A stretch of DNA of 64,000 nucleotides from Acidicapsa acidisoli. Its GTDB lineage: Bacteria > Acidobacteriota > Terriglobia > Terriglobales > Acidobacteriaceae. Positions 38,624-64,000 of this stretch are shown one piece after another (position 1 is the stretch's first letter; every line of letters starts with the position of its first letter). The translations under genes and the position numbers were made by a program. The notes beneath the pieces are model-generated. The model searched no databases. It had not been told where the DNA came from and saw only the letters and a program-made list of their open reading frames with translations. The stretch spans positions 62,001-126,000 of the forward strand of contig NZ_JAGSYI010000005.1 in NCBI RefSeq assembly GCF_025685625.1, in the 5' to 3' direction.

Positions 38624-38693
38624 CCTGAACCCACTGCATCCAGCCGCAAGTCAAACATCAGAGGATCTCCGTCTTGGCGCAGCAAAGTCCTTT

Positions 38694-38794
38694 GAAGGGT
38701 ACGGGCTTTAGTGAAGATACCGGCTTTAGTGAAGGGTACGGGCTTTAGCCCGTACATAACCATCGCCAATCATCGGGGCTTTAGCCCCTGAGGG
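38694..38794. repeat. Two-hairpin dispersed repeat, copy D, with extra partial arms
   Basis: A full element ends at 38794 but is preceded by two truncated left arms: GAAGGGTACGGGCTTTAGT, GAAGATACCGGCTTTAGT and then the complete GAAGGGTACGGGCTTTAGCC. This looks like local tandem growth of the first half. It lies between copB and the DUF1697 gene. Confidence 0.82.
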
Positions 38795-40030: not shown

Positions 40031-40140
40031 TGAGGAGTACGGCCTTCAGCTTTGCAAGGTACGGGCCTCAGCTTTGAAGGGTACGGGCTTCAGCCCGTAC
40101 ATAAAGACCACAAAACCTGCCGGGCTTTAGCCCCTGAGGG
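40031..40140. repeat. Two-hairpin dispersed repeat, copy E, with degraded extra arms
   Basis: A complete element at 40076-40140 (hairpin 1 is CGGGCTTCAGCCCG with a TTCA loop instead of TTTA). Upstream are two decayed left arms, GAGTACGGCCTTCAGCTTT and AAGGTACGGGCCTCAGCTTT. It lies in the 351-bp gap between DinB and the DUF4139 gene. The remainder of the gap shows nothing recognisable. Confidence 0.8.
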
Positions 40141-60261: not shown

Positions 60262-61242
60262 ATGACTACTACTACTTCCCCTTCTTTGCATAAGCTCGGC
60301 AATTCTGATCTTCACCTGACTCCGATCGGCTTTGGCGCGTGGGCCATCGGCGGCGGCAACTGGGATTTCGCGTGGGGCCCCCAGAATGACGACGAATCCA
60401 TTCGCGCGATTCATCAGGCGCTCGACGAAGGTATTAACTGGATCGACACTGCGGCAATCTACGGCCTGGGGCACTCGGAAGAGATTGTCGCCAAGGCGGT
60501 TAAAACGAGTTCGCATAAGCCGCTGGTCTTTACCAAGTGCGCGATGCGCTGGGACGAAAACCGGACGATCTACCGATCGATCACGGCCGCCAGCGTGCAA
60601 GAAGAGCTGGACGCTTCGCTGCGGCGGCTCGGTGTAGAAACAATCGATTTGTACCAGATTCACTGGCCGAATCCGGACGCAGAGATCGAAGAGGGTTGGG
60701 CCGAACTGGCGCGGCAGCAGAAGGCCGGGAAGATTCGCTGGATCGGAATCTCCAACTTTAATGTAGAGCAGATGAAGCGGGTGCAGGCGATTGCGCCGAT
60801 CACCAGCTTGCAGCCGCCGTATTCGATGCTGAGGCCAGCTGTTGAACAGGAAATTTTGCCGTATTGCCTGGCCAACGGCATTGGCGTCATCAACTACTCC
60901 CCGATGGTCAGCGGTTTGCTCACGGGACGCATGAGCGCGGAGCGGGTCGCGGCGATGCCTTCGGATGACTGGCGCCGTAAGGCGGTGGAGTTCAACGAAC
61001 CTCGCCTGAGCCGGAATCTGCGTCTTGTCGAACTGCTGCGCAAGATTGGGTCGGCGCACGGCGTGGAGCCGGGCGTAGTCGCTGTCGCGTGGACACTCCA
61101 TCACCCTGCGATTACGGCTGCTATTGTTGGCGGACGAAGCCCCGAGCAGGTCAAGGGACTTGCGCCAGCTCTGCATTTCCGATTAAACGACGAGGAATTT
61201 TCCAATATTGGGAAATTCCTGGTGGAGAATCCGGTAGCGTAG
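60262..61242 (+). CDS. Aldo/keto reductase
   Basis: NADPH-dependent reductase of 326 residues. The tetrad is visible: Asp and Tyr in INWIDTAAIYGLGHSEE, Lys in LVFTKCAMRW and His in YQIHWPNPD. The cofactor-binding part is SPMVSGLLTGRMS with a C-terminal IVGGRSPEQV. The TIM-barrel order is complete. The family is like YajO/Tas or AKR11 types with broad aldehyde and ketone substrates. It stands alone and is followed by a strong terminator. Confidence 0.93.
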   Translation: MTTTTSPSLHKLGNSDLHLTPIGFGAWAIGGGNWDFAWGPQNDDESIRAIHQALDEGINWIDTAAIYGLGHSEEIVAKAVKTSSHKPLVFTKCAMRWDENRTIYRSITAASVQEELDASLRRLGVETIDLYQIHWPNPDAEIEEGWAELARQQKAGKIRWIGISNFNVEQMKRVQAIAPITSLQPPYSMLRPAVEQEILPYCLANGIGVINYSPMVSGLLTGRMSAERVAAMPSDDWRRKAVEFNEPRLSRNLRLVELLRKIGSAHGVEPGVVAVAWTLHHPAITAAIVGGRSPEQVKGLAPALHFRLNDEEFSNIGKFLVENPVA

Positions 61243-61253
61243 TTCCTAAACGG

Positions 61254-61290
61254 AAAAGGCCCGAACCTCGCTGAGGTTCGGGCCTTTCTT
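61254..61290 (+). terminator. Intrinsic terminator, bidirectional
   Basis: AAAA, then GGCCCGAACCTC, loop GCT, GAGGTTCGGGCC and TTTCTT. The 12-bp perfect stem is flanked by A- and T-runs, so it can work for the aldo/keto reductase gene and for the convergent minus-strand gene. Confidence 0.92.
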
Positions 61291-61306: not shown

Positions 61307-61837
61307 TTACATTGCTGCGACGAAGTCAGGAAGGACGACCGCAGCGTGATCCTGAAGCAGCGCAGTCATGCGAGCTGCCATGCCGCTGTAGATATTCGCG
61401 GCGCGGAAGGCATTGACCTTGACTCCCTCGGTGGCCTGGCTCAGGGCATACTGGGCGAGGGCCATCAGGACGCAAAGGCGAATCTGCATTGCATCGCTAC
61501 GCAACGTCTCAAGAACCATCGGGTCAATCGGGTTGGACCCGGGAATCATGTTGCGGTTGGCGTAATCAGCCATTTCCAGCAAGACACGGGCATTCTGGTA
61601 GATGGCCCAAAGACCGCGGGGGCCGTCCAGACGTTGCCAGATGTCGTCGGTAGTTGCGGTGAGCCCCTCTTTCCAGAGGAACTGCTCGCTCAAGTCGCGG
61701 GCGCTCCAGTCGGAACGGAGCTGACACAGCAGGCTATCCCAGCTTTGGGTATTGCGGCGACGCATGTTGCCACGCCACTTACCGAAATAGACCAGCAAGG
61801 CACTGACGATTGCGATTTGGAGCAATGGAAGCAGCAT
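61307..61837 (-). CDS. Membrane-anchored protein of unknown function, 176 residues
   Basis: No family recognised. The first 20 residues are one transmembrane helix (LLPLLQIAIVSALLVYFGKW). The following soluble part is mostly helical (SWDSLLCQLRSDWSARDLSE, LWAIYQNARVLLEMADYANR, MQIRLCVLMALAQYALSQAT) and looks like a four-helix or TPR-like bundle. The ATG overlaps the stop of the upstream gene (TAATG), so the pair is translationally coupled. It ends near a bidirectional terminator. Confidence 0.75.
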   Translation of the reverse strand: MLLPLLQIAIVSALLVYFGKWRGNMRRRNTQSWDSLLCQLRSDWSARDLSEQFLWKEGLTATTDDIWQRLDGPRGLWAIYQNARVLLEMADYANRNMIPGSNPIDPMVLETLRSDAMQIRLCVLMALAQYALSQATEGVKVNAFRAANIYSGMAARMTALLQDHAAVVLPDFVAAM

Positions 61838-62625
61838 TACCTAATCCTTTTCTTGGGGCGTTCGGCTGAAAGATCACCCAGCGCAACTCTACCTGCTCGT
61901 GCGCCTCCACTCATTAGTAGCAGAAGTTGCTGCATTTGTGGACTGAATTCTTTGCGTTCTTGCTCTTTTGTTGCAAAGCTCAGTACCCAATAGGACAATG
62001 AACCAATGTAACTGACGGACAATGCCTGATCTGGCCAGTGGTATTCGGGGCCTTTGCCCTGATGAGAATGCAGCAGGGACACAATCAGACTGACGATCGA
62101 ATAGAAGCCGAGGCCAGTTGCGATTTGCAATTCGCGGTCGCGCCAGCCGATCGAAAGCAACTGGCTAAAGCTGGCCATTATCAGGAAGCATGCTACGCGC
62201 AGGATGGCGACAGTCTCCTGCATTTGAAAGAGAACTACATTCAAGCCGGTAAAATTCTGCGGCAGGGCCATGCCTGCCAGAGGCCAAATCGCAAGACCTG
62301 CGAGAGCAATCAACAGATTCAGAACAACCAACGACCCTCGCGGTAGAGAGGGTCGTACCGGGCTTAAAACCGACCAAGCCAATTCCACGAGCACGGTAAA
62401 TTGCAGAAGCGAATCAACGATTGCCTGGCCTATATAGTACCGGCCATACACAAACGGAGACATCTTCCAAAGAATCAGGGACGATGCCAGATCGCTGGCC
62501 AGCGTCCAAATCACATACGTACAGAAACACGGCAGCGTACGCCATGTCTTGCGGCGCAGAAGCAGGCCGCTGACAACAGCTTCTCCGACGATTGACACGA
62601 TGAGAATCGTGGAGTCGAGAGTCAC
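61837..62625 (-). CDS. Polytopic membrane protein of unknown function, 262 residues
   Basis: No family recognised. About seven hydrophobic helices are visible, for example TILIVSIVGEAVVSGLLL, YVIWTLASDLASSLILW, AIVDSLLQFTVLVELAWSVL, LVVLNLLIALAGLAIWPLAG and ILRVACFLIMASFSQLLS. The C-terminus is a basic cytoplasmic tail (SAERPKKRIR). It couples to the 176-residue protein through a TAATG overlap. It is downstream of the repeat-peptide gene, 149 bp away. The layout is reminiscent of a small sensor or transport unit, but no evidence assigns a function. Confidence 0.75.
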   Translation of the reverse strand: MTLDSTILIVSIVGEAVVSGLLLRRKTWRTLPCFCTYVIWTLASDLASSLILWKMSPFVYGRYYIGQAIVDSLLQFTVLVELAWSVLSPVRPSLPRGSLVVLNLLIALAGLAIWPLAGMALPQNFTGLNVVLFQMQETVAILRVACFLIMASFSQLLSIGWRDRELQIATGLGFYSIVSLIVSLLHSHQGKGPEYHWPDQALSVSYIGSLSYWVLSFATKEQERKEFSPQMQQLLLLMSGGARAGRVALGDLSAERPKKRIR

Positions 62626-62774: not shown

Positions 62775-63062
62775 TTACGAGAGAGAAGTTACGGCCGTTG
62801 CGGCAAATTGAATCGAACCACCAGCAGGTGCGGGCGAACCAGGGCCAGCTACGAGCGTGTTAGAGGTCGGGGCAAATTGAATCGAGCCACCAGCAGGTGC
62901 GGGCGAACCAGGGCCAGCTACGAGCGTGTTAGAAGTCGGGGCAAATTGAATCGAGCCACCAGCAGGTGCGGGCGAACCAGGGCCGGCAAAGGCGGTGGCG
63001 GCGCTTGCAATAAGGACTACGGTAGCTAATACACACGAATTGGAAACAAATACATTCTTCAT
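62775..63062 (-). CDS. Secreted protein with three 23-residue tandem repeats
   Basis: A 95-residue protein not matching a known family. A signal peptide (SNSCVLATVVLIASAATAFA) is followed by three repeats each beginning GPGSPAPAGGSIQFA and continuing PTSNTLVA (the last ends differently). The mature part is about 70 residues, low in charge and rich in Gly, Pro, Ala and Ser, with no Cys. It could be a cell-surface or biofilm protein, a peptide precursor cut between repeats, or a substrate of the neighbouring enzyme. AAGGAG lies upstream of the start. Uncertain role. Confidence 0.78.
   Translation of the reverse strand: MKNVFVSNSCVLATVVLIASAATAFAGPGSPAPAGGSIQFAPTSNTLVAGPGSPAPAGGSIQFAPTSNTLVAGPGSPAPAGGSIQFAATAVTSLS
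62802..62985. repeat. Tandem 69-bp repeats within the secreted-protein gene
   Basis: Three units of exactly 69 bp period (starts near 62802, 62871 and 62940) with very few differences. They encode the 23-residue repeat of the secreted protein. Two full units are followed by a partial third. Low divergence suggests recent amplification. Confidence 0.9.
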
Positions 63063-63245
63063 TGGAAAATCTCCTTGTAAATTTCAAGCTAGGGAAAGAG
63101 TAACCTAAATGATGTGTTCGGGATACCACCAAAGTCGCAATTTTGTAAAAAAAGCCCTAAATCGGCTTCCCTTTCCCGCCAAAGCGTGGTAATACACTTG
63201 CGCGCAACAAAACATTGGTACTTTTGAAGATTTGAGGAGTTACCC
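63063..63245. promoter_or_regulatory. Divergent promoter region between the repeat-peptide gene and the 63246 gene
   Basis: A 183-bp space between divergent starts. AAGGAG sits next to the repeat-peptide start and GAGGAG 7 bp before the GTG at 63246. The middle is AT-rich (TTTTGTAAAAAAAGCCC near 63142). No clear operator was found. Confidence 0.45.
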
Positions 63246-64000
63246 GTGATCCACGATCTAAGAGACGAGTTCAACGAAAAGTACCGGCCTGAGAGGTACC
63301 AATCTCTGTTACGTCACCTGGACGAAAGGGCCGGTACAAGGGTGGAGTTTCGCGTGGCAGAAACGCCTGTCTTTCTCCCGCAGGGAATGCTGGAGGAGAT
63401 GGCGTCCGCAGGGATGCGGTTGACGCAACGGCTGCTGCGCTGGCCTGAATATCTGGCCGCTGCACGGAACTCGATCCCGAGGAACTTTCTGGTTGCAGGC
63501 GAATCAGGCAGCGCGGTTTTTCCGCATCCGAACTTTCTGACAGCGGACTTTGCGCTGGTCGAGACTGGGTCGGCAGAATTGGCGCCTCGCCTGGTGGAGA
63601 TTCAGGCCTTCCCATCGGTGTTTGCCTACCAGGCGATGCTGACCGAGGAATACAGGCAGGTCTTCGGGCTTCCGGACGATCTTGGCGTCTTTCTCGGAGG
63701 GATGGACAAGGACAGCTTCTGGGATCAATTCGGCAAGACTGTGCTGGGCAATCACGCGCCGGAAAGTGTGGTGTTGACGGAGGTCGACCCGCGGCACCAG
63801 AAGACGCTCCCCGATTTTCTGTTGACTGCTCGACAGCTCGGAATCTCAGTGGTGGATATCGCCACGCTCGTGCCGATTGGAAATAAGCTGCATTACAGAA
63901 ATGACCGAGATCAGTTGATTCCTATCCATCGCATCTATAACCGGGCGATCGCGGATGAGATGATCGGGCGCAACGTGGAACTGCCGTTCGATCTCACGGC
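63246..64000 (+). CDS. Conserved-looking hypothetical protein, possible pre-ATP-grasp/circularly permuted ATP-grasp type (3' end cut)
   Basis: The GTG at 63246 has GAGGAG 7 bp upstream; the frame is open to the edge (251 codons seen). No family was recognised with confidence. The segment ADFALVETGSAELAPRLVEI, followed by QAFPSVFAYQ (residues about 100-130), resembles the Asp...Glu-x-Asn substrate-site pattern of circularly permuted ATP-grasp enzymes, and HRIYNRAIADEM near the edge could be a pre-ATP-grasp helix. It is divergent from the secreted repeat-protein gene, which may be its substrate. The C-terminal part, not visible, would decide. Confidence 0.55.
   Translation, partial: MIHDLRDEFNEKYRPERYQSLLRHLDERAGTRVEFRVAETPVFLPQGMLEEMASAGMRLTQRLLRWPEYLAAARNSIPRNFLVAGESGSAVFPHPNFLTADFALVETGSAELAPRLVEIQAFPSVFAYQAMLTEEYRQVFGLPDDLGVFLGGMDKDSFWDQFGKTVLGNHAPESVVLTEVDPRHQKTLPDFLLTARQLGISVVDIATLVPIGNKLHYRNDRDQLIPIHRIYNRAIADEMIGRNVELPFDLT

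Follow-up and report, generated by a model that had tools for sequence, protein, structure and literature searches.

What is the role of a secreted protein that repeats one short proline-rich unit and is encoded between two membrane proteins and a divergent enzyme? We addressed this question for a gene in the window, by which we mean the whole 64,000-nucleotide stretch of DNA analysed. The gene occupies 62775-63062 on the minus strand and encodes 95 residues, as the first-pass annotation had it. Its product starts with a segment that, judged from its sequence, resembles a signal peptide (MKNVFVSNSCVLATVVLIASAATAFA, 62985-63062, minus strand) and whose last residues, AFA, stand immediately before the first repeat unit. 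Unit 1, GPGSPAPAGGSIQFAPTSNTLVA, is encoded at 62916-62984 and unit 2, at 62847-62915, has the identical peptide sequence, both on the minus strand. The annotation had counted three repeats of 23 residues. Two full units are indeed present, but the third is limited to its first 15 residues (GPGSPAPAGGSIQFA, 62802-62846, minus strand) and is followed by the C-terminal tail ATAVTSLS and the stop codon (62775-62801, minus strand). The exact 69-bp DNA period with few changes, also claimed, was recovered by Tandem Repeats Finder at 62802-62984, with 2.7 copies, 98% matches and no indels. The two full units differ only synonymously (pS 0.048, pN 0.000), the gene is single-copy in its own 7.1-Mb genome besides two weak, chance-level matches, and orthologues with other unit sequences occupy the same slot in sister species; the repeat is therefore not a product of chance. 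The unit has no charged residues and is without Asp, Glu, Lys and Cys, and no dibasic cleavage sites were seen in the protein sequence between the units. At the level of sequence, this is a precursor with a Sec-type signal in which one short proline-rich peptide occurs several times.

The precursor gene is the first of a three-gene unit. It is followed on the minus strand by a gene for a 262-residue seven-helix membrane protein (mem262, 61837-62625), which we propose as the peptide sensor, and by a gene for a 176-residue membrane-anchored helical protein (p176, 61307-61837), a proposed partner predicted to consist of an N-terminal membrane helix and a helical domain. The last two genes have one base in common and are the coupled pair of the first-pass annotation. 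The divergent enzyme that it had noted is also there, starting at 63246 on the plus strand; it is 424 residues long and runs past the window end, so that the window holds its start only (63246-64000), and its full-length gene is found at L004:5246-6520. An aldo/keto reductase gene (60262-61242, plus strand; PF00248, E 1.1e-79) is a conserved flank outside the unit and served as our yardstick of synteny and divergence. No Pfam or NCBIfam model reached its cut-off for the precursor, mem262, p176 or the enzyme, and scans of four proteins with PADLOC and PHROGs gave nothing at E<=0.01. The ice nucleation protein repeat (PF00818) was rejected for the precursor, with 15.9 bits against a gathering cut-off of 27. 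We identified no kinase, regulator or downstream signalling gene in the unit. A long GC-rich palindrome with A and T runs on either side was spotted by eye at 61255-61287, where the reductase and p176 genes converge; it is absent from the terminator scan output and is perhaps a two-way terminator. Elsewhere in the window, two short tandem repeats, at 38693-38748 (18 bp) and 40037-40094 (22 bp), have the word GTACGGGCTT in common.

The repeat protein is a weak query. It retrieved no relative from genome contigs, and its matches among 150 relatives were mostly unrelated low-complexity ORFs. Orthologues were traced via the neighbour genes instead; searches of 150 genomes each found the enzyme in 48 and p176 in 26. 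When genome contigs were searched with a p176 profile, 93 relatives were confirmed; the best 80 loci, all from Acidobacteria, were analysed. The locus is present in Acidicapsa dinghuensis 4GSKX, Occallatibacter savannae AB23 and Paracidobacterium acidisoli 4G-K13, among others. In most near relatives p176 follows mem262 on the same strand, and in sister species a secreted tandem-repeat protein built from another unit fills the slot between the 262-residue gene and the enzyme. The seven-helix gene was found in 63 of the 80 p176 loci, in one of them (L147) only as a 62-residue fragment. At nine of the 63 it begins no more than 130 nt from the contig start, and the upstream slot is not readable. 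The remaining 54 slots, counted by eye, are all filled, 52 with a proline-rich unit or array and two (L195, L197) with a mini-peptide. Some of these 54 loci are redundant (L154 and L155 are the same in sequence), 13 of them have a contig that starts inside the array, leaving the signal outside the available sequence, and L155 and L159 are broken up by runs of N.

The unit sequence varies between species. For instance, G004 carries 16 copies of GPTLPMPNPKDIHFVAEN, the arrays of G002 and G011 are based on GPASPAPKPGSNF, and G014 carries five copies of FGPGIPAPLPQSKGYATTG. The core usually reads xPxxPxP. Proline stands at position 2 in 51 of 51 loci, at position 5 in 44 and at position 7 in 50; the set consists of the window and 50 of the 52 proline-rich loci, L147 and L155 being omitted because they lack a usable seven-helix gene or array.

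The pairing of peptide and seven-helix genes was also seen with an automatic rule, by which 63 of 99 seven-helix genes have a proline-rich secreted ORF 20-260 nt ahead of them, vs 34 of 415 control genes. This rule is crude. Its signal criterion is home-made and many control matches look spurious, one of them (L178) being an array read backwards; it also misses second tandem copies, short upstreams and one genus group whose peptide is too low in proline. The seven-helix family was found in 29 of 396 genomes of the phylum, all within the window's taxonomic family. For its distant members at L218-L220, L225, L227, L232-L236 and L242, no p176 was found downstream, yet a gene for a secreted peptide lies upstream. 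Since distant members keep the peptide gene without p176, the peptide and the seven-helix protein look like the core pair. No upstream peptide was visible at the distant seven-helix genes L217, L224, L226, L229 and L238. Two further members of the family lie in the window's own genome, one (L110, G000:C3:109000-115500) with p176 and a gene for a 53-residue secreted proline-rich peptide, and the other (L229, G000:C1:571500-576500) being among those with no peptide seen. Eight loci (L128, L141, L143, L144, L154, L155, L184 and L180) have two seven-helix genes in a row on one strand, the second being the more divergent. p176 also occurs in other settings, as 17 of the 80 p176 loci (L157, L158, L164 and L173 among others) are without the seven-helix gene, or 14 of 77 when L129, L133 and L189, which have too little upstream DNA, are excluded. 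Several of these loci lie near a gene that, recognised from its sequence, we take to encode a protein like the release-factor methyltransferase PrmC.

The first-pass annotation had left it open whether the gene encodes a multi-core peptide precursor or a surface repeat protein, and copy number bears on this choice. Arrays range from one unit (L127, L151) to 16 (G004). The single-unit versions consist of the signal and 16-18 residues. In the mini-versions (L195, L197 and L091) the signal is followed by 10-15 mostly hydrophobic residues without the proline-rich core, namely SPLLYLLGVFKGIFY, TEIWRWIMSL and SPLQYLLDVWRLG. Among the more distant seven-helix relatives, the upstream slot is often filled with small genes for secreted peptides, in some cases two to four in tandem. 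There are four such genes in G079 (L231; one contains an undetermined stretch), three in G060 (L116), and two each in L225 and L236. The tandem genes before a seven-helix gene are nearly identical and encode 39-59 residues. Three tandem peptide genes in L223 (G027) and one in L221 lie downstream of the seven-helix gene rather than upstream. Two in-frame PQVMGGSNPR units occur at both L222 and L237, and G049 carries a second array, made up of four units (L111). In 23 of 44 arrays a triplet that loosely resembles AxA stands ahead of unit 1, separated from it by a spacer in some cases. Of the 63 seven-helix loci, 28 have a contig end no more than 2.5 kb away on the array side, vs 7 on the opposite side. 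Contigs thus tend to break at arrays, so real copy numbers probably often exceed those that we read; conversely, the array may explain why assemblies break at the locus.

The units differ within arrays in a way that points to selection. Synonymous divergence between units exceeded 0.02 in 38 of 39 arrays, and pN was below pS in all of these 38, with a median ratio of 0.07; in the 16 units of G004, pS is 0.406 and pN 0.003. When units were chosen by an exact seven-residue core, which biases core pN downward, the pooled core pN was 0.006 vs a pS of 0.235 (ratio 0.02), and the rest of the unit gave 0.036 vs 0.283. With a relaxed choice, core pN was below pS in 37 of 38 arrays, with a median ratio of 0. 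The pooled core pN/pS of 0.106 under this choice is inflated by several of the 10 added "units" that look like spacer or leader (four in L160 and one each in L147, L178 and L184), and the per-array result is the safer one. Synonymous differences in a near-constant protein indicate that the units are not merely fresh products of slippage. As read from these substitution patterns, every unit copy is under selection and its protein sequence is largely retained.

Proline-rich tandem repeats are common in cell-surface proteins, and the intact chain could serve as a spacer or fibre in the envelope, assembled or anchored by the two membrane proteins. The long arrays in some species, such as the 16 units of G004, and the missing dibasic sites between the window units agree with such a role. 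However, the single-unit and mini-versions extend merely 10-18 residues past the signal, some relatives use separate tandem genes rather than a longer chain, each unit is constrained, and no sorting motif was recognised. We consider an envelope role unlikely. The single-unit versions, the mini-versions and the small tandem genes that replace in-frame repeats favour a multi-copy peptide precursor over a surface repeat protein.

A precursor with several cores next to an ATP-grasp-like enzyme could also belong to a ribosomally synthesized and modified peptide (RiPP) pathway, in which the enzyme modifies the cores before export. The enzyme lies divergently upstream in 23 of the 34 loci that have at least 2.5 kb of upstream sequence, a count that includes a fragment (L127) and two weak cases (L155 and L167, 33-36% identity). 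ATPgrasp_ST matched 8 of 29 enzyme members weakly (best E 0.00092), a PBY1-like chain gave a weak match (E 0.057), and no ATP-grasp profile matched the window's own enzyme. The enzyme is probably a divergent ATP-grasp protein, judging from these matches. However, the enzyme search gave nothing at E<=1e-10 in G022 and G033, two near-complete genomes in which the other genes are present, and the enzyme sits on a different contig from the unit in G054 and G079. The macrocyclisation known from graspetides and lanthipeptides uses Asp, Glu, Lys or Cys, and a graspetide core has Ser/Thr or Lys plus Asp/Glu; the window unit offers none of Asp, Glu, Lys and Cys. A RiPP pathway is therefore very improbable in our view, although the enzyme possibly modifies the peptide in some species. 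The expectation that four genes would co-occur elsewhere thus held in part. The peptide, seven-helix and p176 genes are found together in other genomes, but the ATP-grasp-like enzyme, with no match in G022 and G033 at the above threshold, is a frequent neighbour and not an obligatory fourth member.

A structural model was made of mem262, the proposed receiver of the peptide. The AlphaFold2 model, built with 54 family sequences, has a pLDDT of 88.9 and a pTM of 0.81 and consists of seven long helices and a C-terminal helix. Charge and hydropathy suggest that the N-terminus is outside and the C-terminus inside. With loop limits set manually, the mean column identity is 0.15, 0.18 and 0.36 in predicted outer loops 1-3 and 0.38, 0.63 and 0.75 in predicted inner loops 1-3. 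Among polar residues, E81 is invariant and R143 and Q155 are near-invariant. Nearly all among the Foldseek matches listed are GPCRs or LYCHOS, none at E<=0.001 and LYCHOS no better than E 0.02. The structural aligner placed the seven-helix domain of LYCHOS/GPR155 at Z 13.8 (210 residues, rmsd 4.5, 6-10% identity), and many GPCRs among the matches listed at Z 11-12, a range (below about 13) in which helical bundles may share a general arrangement only. Most solved seven-helix structures are GPCRs. No microbial rhodopsin was among the matches listed by either program for mem262, a Pfam scan of 54 family members gave no GPCR family at E<=0.1, and a PDB profile search with mem262 gave no GPCR at E<=10. 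We describe the mem262 model as GPCR-like in its helix arrangement, which may be generic, and do not call the protein a GPCR. The seven-helix protein appears to be a new one. The p176 model, a membrane helix and a helical bundle, is of moderate confidence (pLDDT 75.7). Its PDB matches are generic helical ones, none at E<=0.001, and profile searches of the PDB with mem262 and p176 gave nothing meaningful.

The seven-helix protein could instead be a dedicated processor or exporter of the peptide, as AgrB is for AgrD, with the sensor encoded elsewhere. Constant adjacency and co-diversification are also expected of a substrate and its processor, and the few conserved polar residues noted above could be viewed in the same way. 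However, no protease family matched, no catalytic motif was recognised, and the variability is mainly on the outer side with the conserved surfaces on the inner side. We regard a processor as quite unlikely, and a sensor that meets the peptide outside the membrane as the better reading.

Comparisons within the genus locate the variability of mem262 more closely, residues 1-130 being far more variable than residues 131-240. In the pair G013/G014, the first half of the seven-helix gene has 32% identity and a pS of 0.785, a value that misalignment at this level of identity may inflate, and the second half has 85% (pS 0.53). The other genes of this pair have 91% (p176, pS 0.43), 83% (enzyme, 0.32) and 96% (aldo/keto reductase, 0.28). 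We took as close the 20 of 66 genus pairs with an aldo/keto reductase pS below 0.60. These pairs share ancestry and are not independent. Their pS averages 0.80 over the first half of the seven-helix gene, a value that misalignment may again inflate, vs 0.51 and 0.49 in the flanking genes, and every one of the 20 has a higher value in the first half than in either flank. All genes are level (pS 0.68-0.77) in the remaining 46 distant pairs. G002 and G011, which have a common unit, show no divergence peak. From these sequence comparisons, a peak beside the array would fit replacement of an allele block, in which alleles of a matched pair are exchanged.

A family-wide co-variation of the peptide core and the first half of mem262 was unsupported. 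In a partial Mantel test on 51 loci, with relatedness removed, the core and the first half gave a partial r of 0.009 (861 of 2000 permutations as high), and the tie of the core to the conserved second half was slightly stronger (0.112; 32 of 2000 as high). In the pair G007/G008, 9 of 10 core residues are identical, yet the first-half identity is only 37%.

Diversification and apparent allele replacement suit toxin/immunity pairs as well as ligand/receptor pairs. The peptide could thus be a polymorphic one of the bacteriocin type, and the seven-helix protein, with or without p176, its matched immunity protein. That the peptides are small and secreted, some with a hydrophobic C-terminus, agrees with this idea. 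However, the window unit is uncharged, the PADLOC models gave no match, no killing or export gene was recognised in the unit, and a 262-residue seven-helix protein with conserved inner loops would be an unusual immunity protein. A bacteriocin is in our judgement improbable, and a peptide that acts as a ligand remains our preferred reading.

Upstream of the precursor gene lies a conserved bipartite cis-element (63095-63136, minus strand). At a cut-off score of 8, 36 of 46 loci have this 44-bp element, which lies 27-93 nt ahead of the precursor start, the top of 920 shuffled controls being 6.7; the matrix was trained on the same 46 regions and the 36 is not an independent count. The other 10 regions score 8 or less; in three of them (L148, L152 and L160) a similar sequence seems to be present in a shifted register. 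The window's own genome has one strong match, the element itself (E 1.7e-7), and the next best is at E 0.14. Each of seven relatives has one match at E<=0.1; six of these matches reach E<=3.2e-4, and the seventh, in G004, is weak (E 0.07). All six strong matches lie at the array, five by coordinates and the sixth (G480:C46) before the array start; the weak one lies away from it. The element looks private to this operon, as far as its sequence matches tell. It was also considered as the mark of a regulon, which one strong site in the own genome and one match per relative do not support. Scans for sigma-70-type promoters and terminators gave nothing above chance.

Combining these data, we propose that the locus encodes a multi-copy secreted peptide that is sensed by the seven-helix protein, a reading to which we assign a probability of roughly one half. 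The precursor would be exported by its Sec-type signal. After export, the units would probably be released as separate peptides of ~13-23 residues, as the single-unit and tandem-gene versions suggest, and additional copies would raise the peptide dose. The variable outer half of the seven-helix protein is probably where the peptide is sensed, and p176 together with the conserved inner loops and tail may pass the signal onward. The species-specific units and the replaceable first half of mem262 would then make up matched types, comparable to fungal pheromones and receptors or to staphylococcal agr. A more specific picture is conceivable, and we offer it tentatively. It is a peptide-pheromone system of the Acidobacteriaceae that resembles the fungal ones, with a multi-copy linear proline-rich peptide, a GPCR-like receptor of a new family, several such pairs in some genomes, and types swapped between strains by recombination. 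The locus family is a ready natural set of candidate peptide/receptor types. Our searches of open-licence PMC papers listed no such system.

How does the locus compare with known systems? It shares with graspetide clusters the ATP-grasp-like enzyme that adjoins a multi-core-looking precursor in many loci; unlike in those clusters, the enzyme here is not obligatory, the precursor has a Sec-type signal, and the unit is without acidic and lysine residues. mem262 has its seven helices arranged similarly to those of the GPCR fold represented by LYCHOS/GPR155, but it is bacterial and has 6-10% identity. In the staphylococcal agr system, one study (PMC8768832) describes a variable agrBDC region that is linked with itself and not with agrA, which goes with the flanks. 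Here, the peptide array and the putative receptor's first half diverge from their flanks. In contrast to agr, our unit has no AgrB, histidine kinase or response regulator, its peptide is of the Sec type, proline-rich and multi-copy, and co-variation is not proved; neither an AgrB protease nor an AgrC/AgrA pair appeared when the unit's proteins were scanned against Pfam and NCBIfam.

Fungal pheromones and their GPCRs, of which the alpha-factor of S. cerevisiae is one example, offer the other comparison. As described in PMC6342294, the P-factor of S. pombe is a 23-residue peptide that its precursor carries in 4-8 tandem repeats, with Mam2 as its receptor, and the M-factor is encoded by three redundant single-copy genes. 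The points of likeness are a secretory precursor with a short peptide in tandem or redundant genes, a diverse peptide and a seven-helix protein (PMC6342294). Our locus differs in that it is bacterial, from a diderm, and has the peptide and seven-helix genes in a single unit; neither a G protein nor Kex-type sites were identified, the receptor is putative, and no sequence relationship is shown. If the seven-helix protein is the sensor, the locus would represent an independent bacterial version of the fungal logic of a multi-copy peptide and a seven-helix receptor, in an abundant group of soil bacteria. The system belongs to neither the fungal pheromone/GPCR systems nor agr, and both are its nearest working models.
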